Below, piece by piece: positions 7,564-18,284 of a DNA stretch of 37,288 bases; position 1 is the first letter of the stretch; each line of letters begins with the position of its first letter. Source of the DNA: Candidatus Agathobaculum merdavium (lineage in GTDB: Bacteria > Bacillota > Clostridia > Oscillospirales > Butyricicoccaceae); contig DXDE01000094.1 of the NCBI GenBank assembly GCA_019115615.1, forward strand, positions 1 to 37,288. The letters are read 5' to 3'. The notes beneath the pieces are model-generated. The model made no database searches. It was not told where the DNA came from and saw only the letters and a list, made by a program, of their open reading frames with translations. A program made the translations under genes and the position numbers.

Positions 7564-8898
<1,335 letters not shown>

Positions 8899-9034: not shown

Positions 9035-9063
9035 TTGACCTGAGAGGGCACATGTGCTACTAT
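9035..9063 (+). promoter_or_regulatory. Sigma-A-like promoter with a 10-bp palindrome in the spacer
   Basis: TTGACC (9035-9040), 17-nt spacer containing GCACATGTGC (9048-9057), TACTAT (9058-9063). Confidence 0.55.
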
Positions 9064-9120
9064 GTACTTAGTAAAATGACAAAACATAACCAAGAATACA
9101 TCAAATAGAAGCACGGGTTT

Positions 9121-9135
9121 CCCTTTTCAGGCTTG
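9121..9135 (+). repeat. Left copy of imperfect direct repeat flanking the phage cassette (candidate att-like site)
   Basis: CCCTTTTCAGGCTTG; 14/15 identical to 17387-17401. Confidence 0.4.
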
Positions 9136-9224
9136 TTTTTCTATTTTGCCCATACCTTCATTTCTTTTAGGCCGGTCTCTGCGCTTGTCGTAGGGGCCGG
9201 CCGTTTTATGCAGTGGAACGCATA

Positions 9225-10154
9225 TCAATACCAATAGCCGGCTTTCCATTTCTGCAGCGCGAGGCTGGCGTTTCGATAGCTGACATCCGCCGTCGGTGTG
9301 CCGGCCGGCACGCCGAGGATGGCAGCATCACCGGACTGCACATAGCCGGTGGTTTTCCAGCGGGTGAGTGCCTGCTCGTAGGCGTCAGTCTGCGCCTGAC
9401 TGGTCAAACTGGACGCGTATTGACGGTATTCCAGTGTGGGCAGGCCGTTCAGGAAACCCGTTAGACCGGCCAGAGACAGGCTGTAATCCCGGTCGGCGTT
9501 GTATTGCGACAGGGTCATCTGCGCTTGTTGGAGCGCTGCATTTTCGGCGGCGGTATAGTATTCGCTTTCGAGCGCAGCCTCCTGTGAAGCTGCGTTGTCC
9601 TGCGCAGCGGCGCGTGCGGTCAGACGTGCCTGTCCCAGTGCATTCAGATCGCTGCGGTACTGGTTATCGATCGCAATGCGGCTGGTTTCGGCAGCACCCG
9701 AGGTGGCTGCCGCACCGCGCGCACCCATGTTCAGACCAAGCGCTGCCATCTTTTCTTCGTTGGTGAGGACGGACTGCCGTGCGTTGATATCAGTCTGCGT
9801 CATGCCGGCGACATAATCGTTCTCAATCGAGGACAGGTTGCTGGCAAGCTGCTGCTGGATGCGCTGGCGCGCGGCCTCCAGACGCTTGAGGCGTGCGGCC
9901 TCTGCCGCTTCGTACAGCTGACTGATCGAGCTGCCGCTGTTACCGCTGCCGCCGGATGAGCCGGACGAGACCGAATACGGCTGGTAGTCACCGTTCCATG
10001 TTGCAACTGCTTCGTTGGAAGGAACTTTGCCCGCAAGCCCCTCCGCATCGATCTTATTTTGGCGCTCGGTCAGCAGCTGTTCGCGCTCGGCAGCGTCCTG
10101 CGTATTCGCGATTGCTTCGGAATAGTCGAAATCCTCTCTGTAATTCAGAGCCAT
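9225..10154 (-). CDS. Phage coiled-coil/Ala-Gln-rich structural protein (possible internal or ejection protein)
   Basis: Last gene of the cassette; N-terminal DYSEAI...REQLLTERQNKIDAEGL, Gly/Ser linker, long Ala-rich helical region. Confidence 0.5.
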   Translation of the reverse strand: MALNYREDFDYSEAIANTQDAAEREQLLTERQNKIDAEGLAGKVPSNEAVATWNGDYQPYSVSSGSSGGSGNSGSSISQLYEAAEAARLKRLEAARQRIQQQLASNLSSIENDYVAGMTQTDINARQSVLTNEEKMAALGLNMGARGAAATSGAAETSRIAIDNQYRSDLNALGQARLTARAAAQDNAASQEAALESEYYTAAENAALQQAQMTLSQYNADRDYSLSLAGLTGFLNGLPTLEYRQYASSLTSQAQTDAYEQALTRWKTTGYVQSGDAAILGVPAGTPTADVSYRNASLALQKWKAGYWY

Positions 10155-10169
10155 GATGCTCCTCCTTTC

Positions 10170-11990
10170 TCAAATGATGGTCGGCCCAGCTGTCCACCGG
10201 ATGGTGAGCGCGAGCAGGCCGAAGGGCTCGTCGATCCGGTCGTTGCCGATGCGTACGGCGAGCAGCGGCATGCGGTGCTGGCGGTAACGGGTACGGTAGC
10301 TGATCGCACCGGGGATACACCGGAAAGAAAAACGTGAAAAGTCCAGCGTCTTGAATGAAAATAGATCCATGTTGCGCGACATGGCGAGCGTTTTGCCGTC
10401 CTCGCTTTCGTACTGCACGGTAGCGCCGGAGCGTGAGTGCGGCATAAGCGTCGGTATCACGTCGCGCACGGTTTTGACCCGTCCCCAATCCTCAAGCGGC
10501 AGGGTGGGGGTGCGCCAGTAGGCGTCGATGGCTGCGTCGTCATCGCGGTAGGCGCCGTCCTCTTCTGCCAGCGAGAAGCGGCACAGCCGACCATCCGCCG
10601 TGCCGAACCACAGCCTTCCATCCAGCTCGGCAAGGCATTGGGCGGGTACGTTTGCCCAGTAGAACCATGCCGGATCGCCGTTCGGTTCGGTCAGCTTGCC
10701 GTCGGCAATGTATACATGGTCGTTTATCGCCAGATAGTATTTGTCCTCAAATACGATCGCACAGGCGTTTTCCAATCCGGCTTCGTTTTCCAGTCGGGGG
10801 ACAATCGCGTCGGATACTGACCGGATCGTGCGCTGCTCGGCAACCGTTGTGCCGAACACACCCTGCACGCCGCGTGCAGACAGGAACAGCGGCAGATCGC
10901 CGAGCGAAGCAAAGCTGCGCGGGCAGACCGCGCCCGTGCCCTGCGCGCCCTGTGTGAGCGGGTAAAGCGCCGTGCCGTCGTCCGAAAGCAGGAAGGTGCG
11001 GCGGTAGCTGGTGGATTCCTGCGCGCCGCCCTCTTTGACAATCAGCTGGCTTTCGTACTGCTTGAGGTAGCCAACGATTGCCGACGCGTCCGTACCCATG
11101 CGTGTGTAGCCGGTGTCAGGGAAGTAGGTCGGGTCGTACAGACCGCTCTGCCAGTCACAGGCAGGCTCGTCCGGGTTGCCGGCGAGAAACACACGGGTGT
11201 CGTTCTTGCCGCCATACAGCCCTGCGAAGCGGCAACGGTTGATCTTGTCGGCGTAGCCTTCGACCGTTTTGGAAAAGGTGATGGCGACATTGGCCAGTCC
11301 ATTGCCGTTTTCGGGTGCAGCGGCAAGGGTCACCAGTCCGGTTTCGCGGTTGACCGAGGAAACCGTCACGGTCTTGTCGTTGACCGCGGCAGTCACCTCT
11401 GTGTCGTCTAGCTCCTTTGCGTCTACTTGGAACTGGGTGGCCGTGCCGTTGCCGATGAAGGTATTGATGCGCTTGGGGGTCAGCAGATTGACCGCTTCGT
11501 AGCTTGTGCCGCCGCCGGTCGGCTGCGCGGAGATAGTCGTGGTCGGCACATAGGCGATGTCCTGCACGCGTACGGCTTCCCAGGCATCGTCCGCTTCGGT
11601 GCGGCGCACCGCGCGGAAGGTCTGGCCGTCGAGCAGATAGAGCACGCCGCCCATGACGAATGACTGTGAGAATGTTTCGTTCATGTCGGTGCATAGTGGA
11701 GTCTGCGCGCCGTCATCTGCGCGGACAAACAGTGTTTTCCCCGCGTGTACGACGCAGCCCGTCCCGTCGGGCAGGGGAAATAGGCCGTAAATGGGTGCGC
11801 CGTAGTTGTGCTGCGTTTGCCAGCCGGTGCGTTTTACCAGATAGTCGTTCTGGTCGCAGATCATGTTCTGCATGTCGGGCGAGCGGGACAGCGGCAGCTT
11901 GGTCGGGTGGGTGCGGAAGTCTACGCCGCCGAAGCTGCTGACCACGGTCTCGCGCACGGTTTCGGGTTGCGGGAAACAATAAGCACGCAT
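10170..11990 (-). CDS. Phage tail hub/stabilisation-like protein (P22 gp10-like, beta-propeller type)
   Basis: Position after the connector; MRAYCFPQPETVRETVVSSFGGVDFRTHPTKLPLSRSPDMQNMICDQNDYLVKRTGW; repeated beta-rich segments. Start set at the ATG at 11990, overlapping the upstream stop (TGATG). Confidence 0.5.
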   Translation of the reverse strand: MRAYCFPQPETVRETVVSSFGGVDFRTHPTKLPLSRSPDMQNMICDQNDYLVKRTGWQTQHNYGAPIYGLFPLPDGTGCVVHAGKTLFVRADDGAQTPLCTDMNETFSQSFVMGGVLYLLDGQTFRAVRRTEADDAWEAVRVQDIAYVPTTTISAQPTGGGTSYEAVNLLTPKRINTFIGNGTATQFQVDAKELDDTEVTAAVNDKTVTVSSVNRETGLVTLAAAPENGNGLANVAITFSKTVEGYADKINRCRFAGLYGGKNDTRVFLAGNPDEPACDWQSGLYDPTYFPDTGYTRMGTDASAIVGYLKQYESQLIVKEGGAQESTSYRRTFLLSDDGTALYPLTQGAQGTGAVCPRSFASLGDLPLFLSARGVQGVFGTTVAEQRTIRSVSDAIVPRLENEAGLENACAIVFEDKYYLAINDHVYIADGKLTEPNGDPAWFYWANVPAQCLAELDGRLWFGTADGRLCRFSLAEEDGAYRDDDAAIDAYWRTPTLPLEDWGRVKTVRDVIPTLMPHSRSGATVQYESEDGKTLAMSRNMDLFSFKTLDFSRFSFRCIPGAISYRTRYRQHRMPLLAVRIGNDRIDEPFGLLALTIRWTAGPTII

Positions 11991-12358
11991 CAGATCATCT
12001 CCTGTATGGCGGATAGCTGCGCGGGGCAATGGCGCAGCAAGCGATCGGCGTATTCCGAAGCCGCCCAGTTGAATTTCGCTTTGTCATCGTCTGCGACCAG
12101 CAGCGCGGCCAGTCCGTATGGCAGGCACTCGGCCGCAAGGTGTTCGTCTGCCGGGATATCCTCGTCCAGTGCTGTCATATGCGGCGGGGCTGCCAGTGCA
12201 TCTTCGCCGTGCGAAAGCCGCACAGCATTGATCTCGCGCAGGCTGTTCACCAGCAGCTGATTGAGCGCACCGAGCGCAAACTGCTCGTAATACGCACCGG
12301 TGTCGCGCGTTTCGCTCAGCAGGTTCAGCGCCGCACGATAACATTCCGTTCCGGTCAT
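11990..12358 (-). CDS. Head-tail connector/adaptor-like phage protein
   Basis: 122 aa, helical, starting MTGTECYRAALNLLSETRDTG, between capsid and tail hub genes. Confidence 0.5.
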   Translation of the reverse strand: MTGTECYRAALNLLSETRDTGAYYEQFALGALNQLLVNSLREINAVRLSHGEDALAAPPHMTALDEDIPADEHLAAECLPYGLAALLVADDDKAKFNWAASEYADRLLRHCPAQLSAIQEMI

Positions 12359-12379
12359 AGAGATCCTCCTTTCAGAATA

Positions 12380-12408
12380 GCTCCCAGCCTGTTTGACAGG
12401 CTGGGAGC
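12380..12408 (-). promoter_or_regulatory. Strong hairpin between major capsid and connector genes
   Basis: Perfect 12-bp stem GCTCCCAGCCTG-5 nt-CAGGCTGGGAGC; no T-run in the transcript direction. Confidence 0.6.
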
Positions 12409-12441
12409 CTGCTTATGCCGTCCTATGGGCGGCTTTTCCAT

Positions 12442-13476
12442 TTAGCCCGCTGCAACCGGGGACGGGTATTTGCCTTCCTCAATCGCATAGGCACGGATCT
12501 GACAGCCTTCGTCTGCGGTCAGAACGGTTTCCGCCACATAATCCTTAGCGGAATCCGAGTAGCGCGGGTCAGAGCCGTCCAGCGTGTAGCGGATGGTGGT
12601 GCCGGTGGCCGTGATCTTACCTTCGGAGATGGTCGGTGCAGCCGAGATCGAACCGGTTGCAACCAGCGCATACACGCCGCCGCACTTCGCGCCCAGCACG
12701 TAAGCATCGTAGTAGTGACGGCCTTCGATCAGCGCACCGGACACGCCGACCGGGTCCTCATGCACCTTGGCATCCGCGATCTTGTACGGCATGAGCACCG
12801 CGTCCTTGTGGGCAACGAGGAAGTAAACATTGTCCGGCAGGTAGGACTTCGGCACGCGCACGACGTTCATGCCGAATACCTCGCCGCATACGCCTTTGGC
12901 GATCGACTGACGCGCCAGCACATCCACGCCCGCGAATTCATCCGAGGTGCAGACCAGCTTGTACATTTCGCTGGTCAGGTACAGATAGCGGTTGTCGTCC
13001 GGCACGAGCGCGTCGTCCAGCGCCTGCGAAGCGTTCGCGATCTTGGAGATAATGTTGGACTTGGTCGGCTTTTCGCTTTCCGCCAGCGTGCCCGCCATGG
13101 TGACAAAACGCTGGAACGCATATTTGTCTGCTGCCGGCGTGGACTTTTCGTTCAGCTGCAGGCGCAGCATGTCGGCGGCGTTCTTGACTAGGTTCTGGTC
13201 GAGGTTGTTGCCCTTGTCGATCGTCAGTGTGAACGCTTTGTCCTGCGTCATGGTCAGCTCCTGCACAACGTCCTGCATTTCAGTCACGTCGCCGTAGCGC
13301 TTGAGGCCGCCGTCGCGGTCGTAATCGACCTCTTCCACCGTGATCGGCGTGTAGACCTTGAGGGTTTTCACGCCCGTCAGGTCAAAGGTTTCCGCGGTTT
13401 TGCCCTTGATGAAGGATGCGCGGGTGAAAACTTCCGCAATCTGGTCGGAGTATTTGGTAGCAAGATTGATAGCCAT
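12442..13476 (-). CDS. Major capsid protein with C-terminal chitobiase/Ig-like domain
   Basis: MAINLATKYSDQIAEVFTRASFIKGKTAETFDLTGVKTLKVYTP...; position downstream of scaffold; C-terminal SISAAPTISEGKITATGTTIRYTLDGSDPRYSDSAKDY...IRAYAIEEGKYPSP. Confidence 0.75.
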   Translation of the reverse strand: MAINLATKYSDQIAEVFTRASFIKGKTAETFDLTGVKTLKVYTPITVEEVDYDRDGGLKRYGDVTEMQDVVQELTMTQDKAFTLTIDKGNNLDQNLVKNAADMLRLQLNEKSTPAADKYAFQRFVTMAGTLAESEKPTKSNIISKIANASQALDDALVPDDNRYLYLTSEMYKLVCTSDEFAGVDVLARQSIAKGVCGEVFGMNVVRVPKSYLPDNVYFLVAHKDAVLMPYKIADAKVHEDPVGVSGALIEGRHYYDAYVLGAKCGGVYALVATGSISAAPTISEGKITATGTTIRYTLDGSDPRYSDSAKDYVAETVLTADEGCQIRAYAIEEGKYPSPVAAG

Positions 13477-13508
13477 AAGTATAATACCTCCTGTTTATAC
13501 GATTTGTG

Positions 13509-14051
13509 TTATCTGCCGAGCAGAGCAAGCGTTACCGGATCGACGCCTGCCGGTTCGCCATCGCTTTGCGCCGGGCCGACCGCTGCACGGCGGTTTTTCT
13601 GGTTCATTTCGAGCGCGGCCAGCTCGTCCTTCAGTTCGAGGATCTCCCACTTGCGGTAGGCCGAGACGAGCGAGCCTTCCTGCTGCGCCCACTGCCATAC
13701 CTGCTGCGGGATCTCTTCCGGGCGTACGTCCGGGTATTCCTCAACAAAGGCGGCGTAGATTTGGCCGTTCGGCATGCCGTTTGCCGCGCGGTTGCGGCGG
13801 ACATAGGCATTCTGCTTGGACAGGCCGAGGCTGGCCGCTTCGATCAGCTGCTCGAGCGTCAGCTCGACCGTCTGCCCGTCCACTGGGACGGGAACGGTCT
13901 GCTGGCCGCCCTGCGCAGCCTGTGCCGCCGGGTCTCCCGTGTTCTGTGCGGGCATGCTCTGCGCAAACGGGTCGGCGGCGGCCGGGACAGTCTGTGCGCC
14001 CTGCGCCGGTACGGACACCGGGTTACTGGTCGTTTTGCGTTTGGTTTGCAT
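13509..14051 (-). CDS. Phage scaffold-like protein
   Basis: Between portal and capsid genes; Pro/Gln/Ala-rich N-terminus and a charged helical region (LEQLIEAASLGLSKQNAYVRRNRAANG). Confidence 0.5.
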   Translation of the reverse strand: MQTKRKTTSNPVSVPAQGAQTVPAAADPFAQSMPAQNTGDPAAQAAQGGQQTVPVPVDGQTVELTLEQLIEAASLGLSKQNAYVRRNRAANGMPNGQIYAAFVEEYPDVRPEEIPQQVWQWAQQEGSLVSAYRKWEILELKDELAALEMNQKNRRAAVGPAQSDGEPAGVDPVTLALLGR

Positions 14052-15585
14052 TTGTATTAGCCTCCTTTTGCTGCTGTCGCTGCATGCGGAGTGCGTGCAG
14101 CAGATCGTTTTTGCCGCGCACCTGATAATCAGGTACGTTTTCCAGATAGATCAGCGGGTCGGTGATGACGCCGCTTTCAAGCAGGTGATCGTTTGTCGTG
14201 GTCTGCATGGTCTCCGACCAGTAGCTTGCCGCGCCCACATCCACCTGCAAGCGCAGATCCTGCCCGGCAAGCGTTGAGAAGTCAAAGCTCTGCCGGTAGG
14301 GCGTTTCGCCCGGCTCGTCCGCGACAACCAGCGTGCGCACGCCGTAGTGCGCGCCCATCAGGTCGAGGAAGATACGCGCCCAGTCCTCGGTGAAGCGGTA
14401 AAACTCCATCTTGGTCAGTTCAAGCGGGGCAGCGGTTGCATTCTGCACCGCTACGATCGCCGAAGTGTTGTCCGGCTTGACCGTACCAAGCGCGGCTTCG
14501 CTCGCGCCCATCAGTTCGGCGGTGTCGTTCATCATTTGTTTGAGCAGCGCCAGCACCTGTGAGGAGATGTCGGGCGCCTTGAACGCGGTGGCAATCGCTT
14601 CGTTCGGGTTGCCGCGCATGCCGACCGCCTTGCCCACATCGTTCGACCAGCCGTTGGGGAAACGGGTCATGTCGTAAATGATTTTGGGGAAGGCCACCTG
14701 TTTGATGCACTGCACATACATCGAATACAGCTTGTTGATGGCGATTTGGTTGGGGATGGCTTCGGTCAGCGGGCTTTCGCCGTGGCACGAGCCGCGCACG
14801 CGGTTCCAGCACAGGTGTGTGACCGGATAATAACGGTAGGGCAGCTCTTTTTCGCGCATGACAGTCGCGGTGCGCGTGGTTTTGGTAAACGCCACACCAT
14901 GCTCGGTTTTGCGCATGTGCAGCAGCACGGTCACGCGGTCGTTTTCGCCGTTTAAGCGATAGCGCAGATAGTCCTCGGTGTCGTCCGGCACGATGGCCTC
15001 CGCTTCAGCGGCAGACAGACCGTTTGCGCGTGCCTCTTTGCGTACTTCATCCACATCGCGCCGCATGGCGAGAATCAGATACGGCTGGCGCTGCACCTCA
15101 TCGCAGGCCGGGTTGCCGAAGCAGATATTAGTCGAATCAATCAGCTCGGCCACGATATCGCCCTTAACCGCCTGCCCGGTTTCGAGCGCAGGGTCAAAGT
15201 GCATGTAAAAGCAGGCGTCGCCGTCTACGCAGGCGTTTTTAAGCAGCGGGCGGCCGAGCGCCTTGACACCCGAGCGTTCGATCGCCGACGCAAAGGCATG
15301 TTCCAGCACACGGGCGGTCTTGCGCCCGTCGCCATCCATGTCAAACGGCTGGGCGCGTACCGCGACATCGTCCGAGACCAGCATGGACACAAACAGGTTG
15401 ACGCAGCGGCGCAGCACATTGAAGATCAGCGGGTCGAGCGACTGCACGCGCAGCCCCTCCCACTGGCGGCCGAGGTAAAACGCCTCATTGCGGCGCACGC
15501 GGTCGTATAGGCCGATCGAACGCTTGTAGTCGCGGTCGCGCTCATATTTGCGCCAGATGGCGGTGGGGGACGGATCAAATTTCAT
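14023..15585 (-). CDS. Phage portal protein (P22-like/podoviral type)
   Basis: MKFDPSPTAIWRKYERDRDYKRSIGLYDRVRRNEAFYLGRQWEGL...; ~520 aa, adjacent to terminase and scaffold. Confidence 0.75.
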   Translation of the reverse strand: MKFDPSPTAIWRKYERDRDYKRSIGLYDRVRRNEAFYLGRQWEGLRVQSLDPLIFNVLRRCVNLFVSMLVSDDVAVRAQPFDMDGDGRKTARVLEHAFASAIERSGVKALGRPLLKNACVDGDACFYMHFDPALETGQAVKGDIVAELIDSTNICFGNPACDEVQRQPYLILAMRRDVDEVRKEARANGLSAAEAEAIVPDDTEDYLRYRLNGENDRVTVLLHMRKTEHGVAFTKTTRTATVMREKELPYRYYPVTHLCWNRVRGSCHGESPLTEAIPNQIAINKLYSMYVQCIKQVAFPKIIYDMTRFPNGWSNDVGKAVGMRGNPNEAIATAFKAPDISSQVLALLKQMMNDTAELMGASEAALGTVKPDNTSAIVAVQNATAAPLELTKMEFYRFTEDWARIFLDLMGAHYGVRTLVVADEPGETPYRQSFDFSTLAGQDLRLQVDVGAASYWSETMQTTTNDHLLESGVITDPLIYLENVPDYQVRGKNDLLHALRMQRQQQKEANTNANQTQNDQ

Positions 15586-15769
15586 CGGTCATGTCCTCCC
15601 GTCCGTAAGCCATCAGCGCAGCCAGATCGCGGCTGAGCGCATCGTCCACAGGCGTGGGCGTGTTGCTGTCGCCCTTGGTCGGACGCTGCGGCAGCCGCAG
15701 ACCGCCGGACACGACCGCGCCGGTCAGCACCAGCAGCGCCGCGCCGATGCAGTAAAGTAAAATGGTCAT
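15575..15769 (-). CDS. Small single-TM protein of unknown function
   Basis: 64 aa MTILLYCIGAALLVLTGAVVSGGL...; AAAGGAGGAACCC ribosome-binding site directly upstream; overlaps the portal start. Confidence 0.55.
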   Translation of the reverse strand: MTILLYCIGAALLVLTGAVVSGGLRLPQRPTKGDSNTPTPVDDALSRDLAALMAYGREDMTDEI

Positions 15770-15783
15770 AGGGTTCCTCCTTT

Positions 15784-17082
15784 TCAGTACGCGAGAAAAT
15801 CCCCGACTTCGCAGTCGTAAGCCGTAGGGGAAACAGGTGCGGGCGGCTCGTACACCGTCGCAGCGTAGCCGCGCAGCGCGTCGGGCGCGTGGGTCAGCTC
15901 GTGCGGTGTGTTTGCCACGTCGGACGGATTGCGCGCATCGTGCTGCAAAGCGGGCAGCGTGCGGATCAGGTTGCGGCAGGTGTCGAAGACGGTCAGGTGC
16001 GGGCGCGGTTGACCTTGTTCGTCCTTGCGCGGGGCGAGCAGTTCATGCAGCGCCAGCCAACCGGCAACACGCTCGTTGCAGCTTTTGTCGAAATCCAGTC
16101 CGCAGTCCGCGAACAGCTCGACTGCGCTTTTGCCGGTCTCCTGCCGCCGGTTCCACAAATCGGGTGGTGCCAGACGGCAGTCAATGTGCTCGCCGGACAG
16201 TTCGCAGGCGAGAATCGCCGCTGCGGCTTCCGAGATAATCAAACTGGACTGATATAACTCTCTGTATACTACGCTGTACCCGTCCGGGCTTTGCGCAATC
16301 CAGAGCGCCGCCAGCATGTCCAGTCCGTAGTCGATGGTCAGATACCGCCGCCAGTCCTTTGGGATGGCGTGCGGTTTGACAACATGCAGGTCGGGGCTAA
16401 ACTCGCTGAAGTATCGGCCTTCGTCCAGTTCCCACACGCCGTCGAGCAGCGCGCGCCGGTCGCGCACGGAGAGCAGCCGCAGCCGCTTTTCGTAGCCCGC
16501 GTCCGCACGATGCAGGAAAGGGTTATCCGTGAGCCGCGCGGGCAGGAACAACCGTGAGCCGCCGTCGAACTCGGTTTCGGTGTCGGGCGGCATCGGATCG
16601 ATGTAGCGCTTTTTGACCCATTGATGACCGACCCCGCCCGGATTAGTCGTACTCTTGACCTGCTTGGGATAGCCGTTTGCCCCGCGCACGCGCGAGATCA
16701 GATAGGTGAACTGGCTTTCGGTGAAATGGGTCAGCTCATCGAACCGCAGCACATCGTATTCCGCACTCTGGTACTTGGTCACATCGCTTTCCGCGTCGCA
16801 GTAGCCGAACTCGAGCGTCGAACCGTTTGCAAACTGCCACAGATGCTCGCTGACCTTGTAACTGGCAATCGACTGCGGGAACAGCCGCAGCGAAGCGGGC
16901 ACGAGTGAGCGTTCCAGTTCGGGCATGGTGCGGCGCAGCATCAGCTGCCGCGAACCGGGGTAACAGACAGCGAACCGCAGCGCGTCGAGCAGTTGCCCGT
17001 GGCTTTTGCCGCCGCCTGCTGCGCCGCCGAACAGCGTTTCGAACGCGTCCGACTGAACGAACGCAGCCTGCCGGGGGGTTAT
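15784..17082 (-). CDS. Phage terminase large subunit
   Basis: ITPRQAAFVQSDAFETLFGGAAGGGKSHGQLLDALRFAV (Walker A), VLRFDELTHFTE (Walker B-like), YLTIDYG nuclease motif. The ORF is open to an ATG at 17370, but homology-like sequence begins only at EITPRQ; proposed start is ATA at 17082-17080. Confidence 0.75.
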   Translation of the reverse strand: MTPRQAAFVQSDAFETLFGGAAGGGKSHGQLLDALRFAVCYPGSRQLMLRRTMPELERSLVPASLRLFPQSIASYKVSEHLWQFANGSTLEFGYCDAESDVTKYQSAEYDVLRFDELTHFTESQFTYLISRVRGANGYPKQVKSTTNPGGVGHQWVKKRYIDPMPPDTETEFDGGSRLFLPARLTDNPFLHRADAGYEKRLRLLSVRDRRALLDGVWELDEGRYFSEFSPDLHVVKPHAIPKDWRRYLTIDYGLDMLAALWIAQSPDGYSVVYRELYQSSLIISEAAAAILACELSGEHIDCRLAPPDLWNRRQETGKSAVELFADCGLDFDKSCNERVAGWLALHELLAPRKDEQGQPRPHLTVFDTCRNLIRTLPALQHDARNPSDVANTPHELTHAPDALRGYAATVYEPPAPVSPTAYDCEVGDFLAY

Positions 17083-17336
17083 TTCGTATCCGATCGTGCG
17101 TCTACGATCCGGAACACGATTTCGACTGGCTCGGGATTTTGCACCTCGCCGCCCAGCATCGTGCCCTTGCCGACTGTCCGGTCGAGGATCTCCTTGATCG
17201 CACTCAGGCGGCTGTTGGCCGGTGCTTCCGCGTCGTCCGCAATGTCGTACAGCATCCGGATCAGATCGTCCGGCTGCTTCTTTCTTGGCACAATGGCATC
17301 CGCTCCTTTCGGGAAAAGATTTGCTTGTCTTCCCAT
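17079..17336 (-). CDS. Phage small-terminase-like/DNA-packaging protein
   Basis: Directly upstream of terL; ...PRKKQPDDLIRMLYDIADDAEAPANSRLSAIKEILDRTVGKG. Start uncertain: ATG 17336, or GTG 17291 preceded by AAAGGAG. Confidence 0.5.
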   Translation of the reverse strand: MGRQANLFPKGADAIVPRKKQPDDLIRMLYDIADDAEAPANSRLSAIKEILDRTVGKGTMLGGEVQNPEPVEIVFRIVDARSDTK

Positions 17337-17386
17337 GCCGATAAGAATAGCGGCAAAAGCGATATTCCACAAGAACAAATGTTTGA

Positions 17387-17401: not shown

Positions 17402-17459
17402 CAATTTATTGCCCGGTGCGGTATCCTGAATACGGATTGAAATGCAGGGAGAGGAAAAT

Positions 17460-18284
17460 ATGATGCAAAAGATCAAGCTGATCGCGCTCGATCTGGATGG
17501 AACAGCGCTGACGCCGGACAATGATGTTTCGCCCGCGACCATGGACGCGGTGCGCCGTGCACGCGAAGCGGGCATACATGTGGTGGTGTCGACCGGCCGT
17601 ATCTGCGGCGAGGCAAGCGAGTTTGCCGTCAAGCTGGGTGCGGACGATCTGATGGTTACGGCAGGCGGCGCGTCGCTGTCGCGCGTGTCGACCGGACAGT
17701 GCACCATGCGCATGTCCATGCCGTGGGAGGACGCAGTGCGCGCGGCCGCAGCGGTTGAGCGTATTGGCCTGACCGTCATGGTCTATGTGGGTGAAACGCT
17801 GCTCATCACGCCGTATGACGAGATGGAGTTCGGAAAATACAAATCCAACGAGGGTTTCCTTGCGGTCAAGCGGGTCGTGCCCTCGATCGCGGAATATATC
17901 GCGGATGGACATGTTTCGGTCGATAAGATTTTTGCCCGCAGCAATGATCCGGTCATTCTCCGTATGGCGCGGGAAAAAATTGAGCAAATCCCGGGCGTGC
18001 GCGTGATGAGTTCCGCGACGGATAATATTGAGGTCGTTACCCCTGCGGCGGATAAGGGCAATGCGCTGGGCATGCTGTGCCGCCAGCTGGGTACGGATCT
18101 TGCGCATGCCGCCGCGATGGGCGACAGCGAGAACGATCTTGAAATGCTGCGCGCGGTCGCGCTGCCGATCGCGATGGGCAACGCCAATGATGCGGTCAAG
18201 GCGATCTGCAAGCGGGAGACGCTGACCAATGCCGAGGACGGCGTTGCCGCCGCAATCGACCGTATTCTTGCTGAAAATGAATAA
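17460..18284 (+). CDS. Cof-type HAD-IIB family hydrolase
   Basis: KLIALDLDGTALTPDNDVSPATMDAVRRA; MGDSENDLEML. Confidence 0.93.
   Translation: MMQKIKLIALDLDGTALTPDNDVSPATMDAVRRAREAGIHVVVSTGRICGEASEFAVKLGADDLMVTAGGASLSRVSTGQCTMRMSMPWEDAVRAAAAVERIGLTVMVYVGETLLITPYDEMEFGKYKSNEGFLAVKRVVPSIAEYIADGHVSVDKIFARSNDPVILRMAREKIEQIPGVRVMSSATDNIEVVTPAADKGNALGMLCRQLGTDLAHAAAMGDSENDLEMLRAVALPIAMGNANDAVKAICKRETLTNAEDGVAAAIDRILAENE

Follow-up and report, generated by a model that had tools for sequence, protein, structure and literature searches.

Between eno and a HAD hydrolase gene, the genome of Candidatus Agathobaculum merdavium carries a compact block of phage-like capsid and packaging genes. This arrangement raises the question of whether the block is the residue of a decayed prophage, a satellite that builds its own capsid or a domesticated, GTA-like particle system, the options put forward in an earlier note on this DNA. 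We analysed a window of 37,288 nt, which is the whole stretch of DNA under study (contig DXDE01000094.1, GCA_019115615.1), and compared it with the genomes of relatives, in which g9, g10, g12, g31 and g55 are codes for genera, f17 and f19 are codes for families, and G and L numbers denote genomes and loci.

Gene content and packaging genes

All nine tightly packed minus-strand ORFs of the cassette were recovered in an ORF check with intact frames and in the order claimed before, TerS-TerL-TM-portal-scaffold-capsid-connector-hub-coiled-coil (Table 1). The position between eno and the HAD gene was borne out and the coordinates given earlier were right except for the start of TerS, which had been set at 17336 (-) and is probably a GTG at 17291, making the protein shorter. 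Between the two host genes there is, as had been stated, no integrase, replication, lysis or tail gene, and the GC content of the cassette equals that of the flanking host genes, in agreement with its reported host-like composition. Neither tRNA genes nor matches to Rfam families were found within the window.

Table 1. Coordinates of the cassette genes, the promoter region and the flanking host genes in the window
Feature	Position	Strand	Remarks
eno (flanking host gene)	7579..8898	+	
Coiled-coil virion protein, predicted long helical hairpin	9225..10154	-	in related prophages the homologue lies among fibre, holin and amidase genes
Neck/tail hub-like virion protein (phrog_3287)	10170..11990	-	family match
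Head-tail connector-like protein	11990..12358	-	position and homology
Major capsid protein, C-terminal Fn3-associated domain	12442..13476	-	family matches
Scaffold-like protein	13509..14051	-	position between portal and capsid
Portal, P22-like	14023..15585	-	Pfam and homologous cassettes
Small predicted transmembrane protein (TM)	15575..15769	-	position conserved
Large terminase TerL	15784..17073	-	start codon non-canonical; homology starts here or a few codons upstream
Small terminase TerS, ~70 aa, no HTH domain	17079..17291	-	likely GTG start after AAAGGAG
Promoter: -35 TTGTGG, 17 bp spacer, invariant -10 TATTCT	17344..17372	-	
LexA/SOS-operator-like box AAACATTTGTTC	17373..17384	-	lies immediately before the cassette promoter's -35
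HAD hydrolase (flanking host gene)	17442..18284	+	

Family matches were obtained for TerL (Pfam Terminase_6N, 2.5e-11; phrog_979, 4e-45), the capsid (phrog_422 major head protein, 5e-39; C-terminal Fn3-associated domain, 2e-7), the hub (phrog_3287 virion structural protein, 4e-28) and the portal (P22_portal, 3.7e-13), and the last of these upholds the earlier description of a P22-like head module as far as the portal is concerned. As TerS, TM, scaffold, connector and coiled-coil protein gave no convincing family match, their roles were assigned from position and from homologous cassettes and prophages. The naming of the hub as gp10-like could not be established, since it had no Pfam or PDB match and its structure model was of low confidence and unusable (pLDDT 40); sequence relatives in the PDB were found for none of hub, portal and capsid. 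The coiled-coil protein was modelled (pLDDT 68) as a predicted long helical hairpin, and the model had no match in the PDB.

Two stretches beside these genes were also recorded. In some species (L045, L046, L048, L054) an insert of roughly 500 nt lies between capsid and connector and encodes, on the opposite strand, a protein of 94-104 aa with a hydrophobic N-terminus and a conserved C-terminal AVKxLREQTG motif. The + strand of the gap that separates eno from the cassette end (window 9035-9205) has a promoter-like TTGACC-N17-TACTAT, antisense to the cassette and similar to promoters in L044, L048 and L060, with a terminator-like hairpin ~130 nt after it; the stretch has no Rfam match and might encode a small RNA.

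Among the packaging genes, TerL shows no change in its Walker A, Walker B and nuclease motifs across 19 species. The cassette TerS is ~70 aa long with no domain match, whereas the TerS proteins of related prophages, which served as positive control in the Pfam search, have 150-228 aa and HTH matches; judged by sequence, the cassette TerS is without the DNA-binding domain found in its prophage counterparts. The missing domain is a trait proposed for TerS of the GTA type and reported for RcGTA (PMC6854486), and the TerS of FpGTA is likewise reported to have no obvious DNA-binding domain (PMC12946183). The start of TerL is unusual, as most Agathobaculum have no ATG, GTG or TTG close before Walker A (window 17073-17100; L038-L063) and show ATA or GTA over the TerS stop at the start site, with GTG in three species; g10 cassettes, prophages and G044 have ATG at the corresponding place. 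We also weighed whether translation slips by -1 from terS into terL and set this aside, no conserved slippery heptamer being seen.

Distribution, selection and inheritance of the cassette

The capsid gene was present in 23 of 25 Agathobaculum species, 89-97% identical and with all frames open. HAD, uppP and ftsK lie beside the cassette in every locus long enough to tell and eno on the other side in most, so that the check proposed earlier, a search for the same cassette at this place in relatives, found it mostly at the same locus. None of the relatives examined had a full-length prophage there, the finding by which the present copy would have been a mere deletion derivative. Outside the genus, the cassette occurs in g12 (2/2 species) and in one g9 species at roughly 50-75% identity, and 11 of 12 g10 species have a homologue whose main proteins are 46-67% identical, at one conserved locus of its own. 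By these comparisons the cassette extends to the sister genera, and a genus further removed has fixed a homologue at a locus of its own. Broken copies comprised a frameshifted capsid gene in one g12 cassette (G047; L064, L076) and one g10 cassette that appears split at about capsid codon 83, with the head and tail halves apart (L145, G107).

In the cassette-less genomes G011 and G024, the HAD gene lies directly beside a gene for a 624-aa protein, ~100 bp apart. As this gene also follows the coiled-coil gene immediately in Agathobaculum G002, g12 and G044, the simplest ancestral order is HAD-cassette-624-aa gene; G011 and G024 would then have lost the cassette, the alternative being recombination, and eno would have become its neighbour later in most Agathobaculum. 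The eno gene of G011 is in two frames (L107/L158), reflecting either a frameshift or a sequencing error.

Selection was estimated by the Nei-Gojobori method as median omega over pairs with dS below 1. The values were 0.095 for capsid, 0.11 for portal, 0.13 for TerL, 0.15 for hub, 0.19 for connector, 0.20 for scaffold, 0.21 for the coiled-coil protein, 0.36 for TM and 0.41 for TerS, and the host neighbours gave 0.15 (HAD), 0.15 (uppP), 0.145 (ftsK) and 0.03 (eno). The dN/dS comparison suggested in the earlier note thus places the main structural genes at 0.09-0.21 against ~0.15 for the flanking HAD, uppP and ftsK. The cassette is under purifying selection, and its main genes are as strongly constrained as these neighbours. 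When trees for seven proteins of the cassette were set against trees for five host proteins, the latter all encoded by neighbouring genes, 7 of 14 splits agreed, several of them at 100% support. As some of the conflicts between the two were strongly supported, segments of the cassette may have recombined, and the pattern fits long vertical inheritance with some recombination.

SOS-type operator and standalone fibre genes

The promoter region between HAD and TerS is conserved across the genus. The sequence RAACAYTTGTTC was found there in 19 of 19 loci, and the box R-AAC-AYTT-GTTC is kept in all 19 Agathobaculum loci; the promoter keeps the 17-bp spacing to the invariant TATTCT in 18, and L056 has its box shifted 9 bp upstream. 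The -35 element in most relatives is TTGACT or similar. Read on the opposite strand, the box of the present genome, AAACATTTGTTC, gives GAACAAATGTTT, the core of the C. difficile recA operator, which served in LexA binding assays (PMC4234289). Each of four Agathobaculum genomes contains 5-9 copies of the motif, some of them upstream of genes for RarA, a Y-family polymerase and a UvrD-like helicase. GAAC-N4-GTTC boxes precede the cassette in G044 and g12 too; none were seen upstream of g10 cassettes and none were found upstream of the fibre genes. As the box equals the core of a recA operator and recurs upstream of the RarA, polymerase and helicase genes, SOS control of the cassette is likely from its sequence.

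In related prophages, a large fibre, a holin and an amidase surround the homologue of the coiled-coil gene, and we searched the family genomes with a profile of the N-terminal anchor of the prophage fibre. Standalone fibre genes of ~180-260 aa were obtained, with an anchor of 62% mean identity that matches the phage fibre anchor phrog_14469 (6e-21) and a tip diversified to 26%. Among 87 family genomes they were present in 29 of the 37 with a cassette and in 0 of the 50 without (Fisher 4e-16, a value that ignores kinship). One profile match, in G007, was a prophage fibre and was left out of the count. The profile search found no fibre in 8 of 23 cassette-bearing Agathobaculum, the isolate G008 among them; contigs end at the locus in two of these eight (G014, G007), five also lack the neighbouring ligase gene, and in G008 the ligase gene is followed by other genes.

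In Agathobaculum, g12 and G044, most fibre genes stand tail to tail with a gene for an S-layer homology protein, and in several species the fibre and S-layer genes occur in multiple inverted copies, in places around a tyrosine recombinase. In G019 such a recombinase lies between two inverted fibre and S-layer pairs, whose inverted arms measure 658 and 384 nt (93%), and in the genome studied here fibre copies are found on contigs C23 and C106. The g10 genomes have one copy of the fibre gene, and a DEAD-box helicase gene is often close by. The cassette-less G011 and G024 keep the paired S-layer genes, and no fibre was found there. From the tail-to-tail genes, the multiple inverted copies and the recombinase, we tentatively raise the possibility that fibre and host S-layer gene form a linked switching pair, although we regard this as rather doubtful. 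Inversion would then change surface and particle specificity together, and gene exchange would be directed at cells of matching surface type.

Explanations and known systems

We consider it probable that the cassette supplies the head and packaging genes of a domesticated, SOS-induced, GTA-like particle system. This was the last of the options in the earlier note and agrees with a locus shared among relatives, purifying selection, the lack of any full prophage and a clean empty site. The genomes document the operator and the fibre linkage along with several of the traits by which a GTA is recognised, namely fixed and vertically inherited head and packaging genes, no self-propagation genes at the locus, purifying selection and a TerS devoid of HTH. 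Counted against a GTA-like system are the want of a conserved lysis module in the PF05105 holin search, the fibre missing in 8 of 23, the non-canonical TerL start, the supported tree conflicts, the frameshifted g12 capsid and the split g10 cassette. In that search the holin, the sole lysis family covered, was present in 11 of 25 genomes and absent from that of Ca. A. merdavium and from G018.

In such a system, DNA damage would free the cassette promoter from LexA, and portal, scaffold and capsid would build small heads. TerS and TerL, devoid of pac-site specificity, would load these with pieces of the host chromosome, and connector, hub and coiled-coil protein would close a short tail. The fibre from the second locus would attach to the particle and bind the surface of kin cells, probably the S-layer, where the DNA would be delivered. 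These steps, from the forming of particles and their host-DNA content to release and delivery, are drawn by analogy from FpGTA, and the particles would most likely carry pieces of the bacterium's own DNA.

The main rival is a PBSX-like killer, induced by the SOS response and packing host DNA without delivering it, whose fibre would target the S-layer of competitors and kill them. The SOS-type promoter and a fibre tip of only 26% mean identity beside S-layer genes are compatible with it, SlpA, an S-layer protein of C. difficile, is reported to act as a phage receptor (PMC10100898), and the authors of the FpGTA study left this option open (PMC12946183). We nevertheless hold it to be unlikely, as connector and hub are kept, which is consistent with DNA passage, and there are no contractile or tail-shaft genes; sequence cannot in itself tell delivery from killing. 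A capsid domesticated for another use, as a storage shell or for packaging a specific element, could explain why no genus-wide holin came up in the PF05105 search, and a TerL with so unusual a start might package little. The TerL motifs are invariant in 19 species, a storage shell needs neither portal nor hub and the fibre tracks the cassette, all of which make this use very unlikely. An encapsulin nanocompartment, an HK97-fold shell that holds a cargo protein and has neither portal nor terminase, was ruled out by the presence of both these genes.

The remaining options are more improbable still. A capsid-forming satellite resembling cf-PICI, or a mobile element repeatedly inserting at one site, would account for the own capsid, portal and terminase and for the occurrence of some tree conflict. 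The integrase and own replication or excision genes of a cf-PICI were not found at the locus, which is fixed and whose trees are largely congruent in a mostly vertical pattern; moreover, the empty site is a simple gene junction and no phage record came closer than 46% in any tested protein, and the satellite option is accordingly held to be highly improbable. Least probable of all is a decayed prophage remnant that looks intact by chance. The locus does lack integrase, replication, lysis and fibre genes, and occasional broken copies exist outside Agathobaculum (G047, G107). Decay is rejected, as the frames are intact in 23 species under genus-wide purifying selection like that on neighbouring genes, an omega near 1 being what a remnant would be expected to show, and promoter and operator are conserved.

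The GTA-like reading has its closest parallels in systems already described. In Faecalibacterium, the FpGTA operons I and II (PMC12946183) likewise encode a TerS with no obvious DNA-binding domain, along with TerL, portal, scaffold, capsid and other genes of phage type; FpGTA is podovirus-type, fixed across a genus of gut Clostridia and has its fibre/RBP at a second locus, the likeness being one of layout. Its two-locus layout, a head and packaging operon with a separate fibre locus, was found here as well. The two differ in that FpGTA II has a holin and an endolysin, neither found with the Agathobaculum cassette, and in that the present fibre lies beside S-layer genes in another host, Agathobaculum/Butyricicoccaceae. 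Purified FpGTA particles measure about 40 nm and hold about 9 kb of DNA (PMC12946183). Compared by organisation, RcGTA of Rhodobacter capsulatus also has a vertically kept head and packaging cluster, an HTH-less TerS (PMC6854486) and dispersed parts. It differs in being siphovirus-like with tail genes in the cluster. Its regulators are CtrA and GafA, unlike the regulation predicted for the cassette. PBSX of Bacillus subtilis is likewise domesticated, is induced by DNA damage and packages host DNA in a Gram-positive host, but it has a long contractile tail, kills and carries its own lysis genes. It has been called the first Gram-positive GTA-like system (PMC12946183).

Podovirus-like prophages of Butyricicoccaceae (L071-L074, L153-L157) have homologous TerL, portal, capsid, hub and coiled-coil genes in the same order, and differ by an HTH-bearing TerS, a large fibre, holin and amidase and a hub 25-40% identical to that of the cassette. 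A prophage-like relative of the cassette is also present on contig C159 of the genome studied here (L065), with TerL 54%, capsid 68% over 258 aa and hub 33% identical and with an HTH-bearing TerS. The nearest named isolates are the Bacillus megaterium phages Pony, Page, Pavlov and Palmer (portal 28%, hub 31% identical), which are complete podophages of another host and very distant. In an order-wide search, related hub genes were detected in 141 of 397 genomes. In the f17 genera g31 and g55 (L295-L298), one-piece clusters comprise a TerS without domain match, TerL, hub, anchored fibre, coiled-coil and a holin-like protein, with an additional M23 peptidase in g31; they are flanked by host genes at either end, no integrase was seen, and these compact clusters are candidate complete GTA-like clusters. 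Several genera of f19 (L289-L294, L299, L300) have TerL-portal-scaffold-capsid-connector-hub-coiled-coil clusters beside host genes without a fibre, which could include the published FpGTA lineage. From the few examined, the f17 and f19 clusters may be the same kind of system as the cassette.

GTAs are known in few lineages, and January 2026 saw the first report of one from gut Clostridia. The kind of system proposed here, a podovirus-like GTA of gut Clostridia, is thus known, and what is new is the host family, the SOS-type operator and the fibre beside S-layer genes. Butyricicoccaceae would be a second gut family with such a cassette fixed and under selection. The predicted inducer is DNA damage acting through LexA and the predicted receptor class is the S-layer, which would make particle production and gene exchange directly testable in the culturable butyrate producers A. 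desmolans, A. butyriciproducens and A. massiliense.
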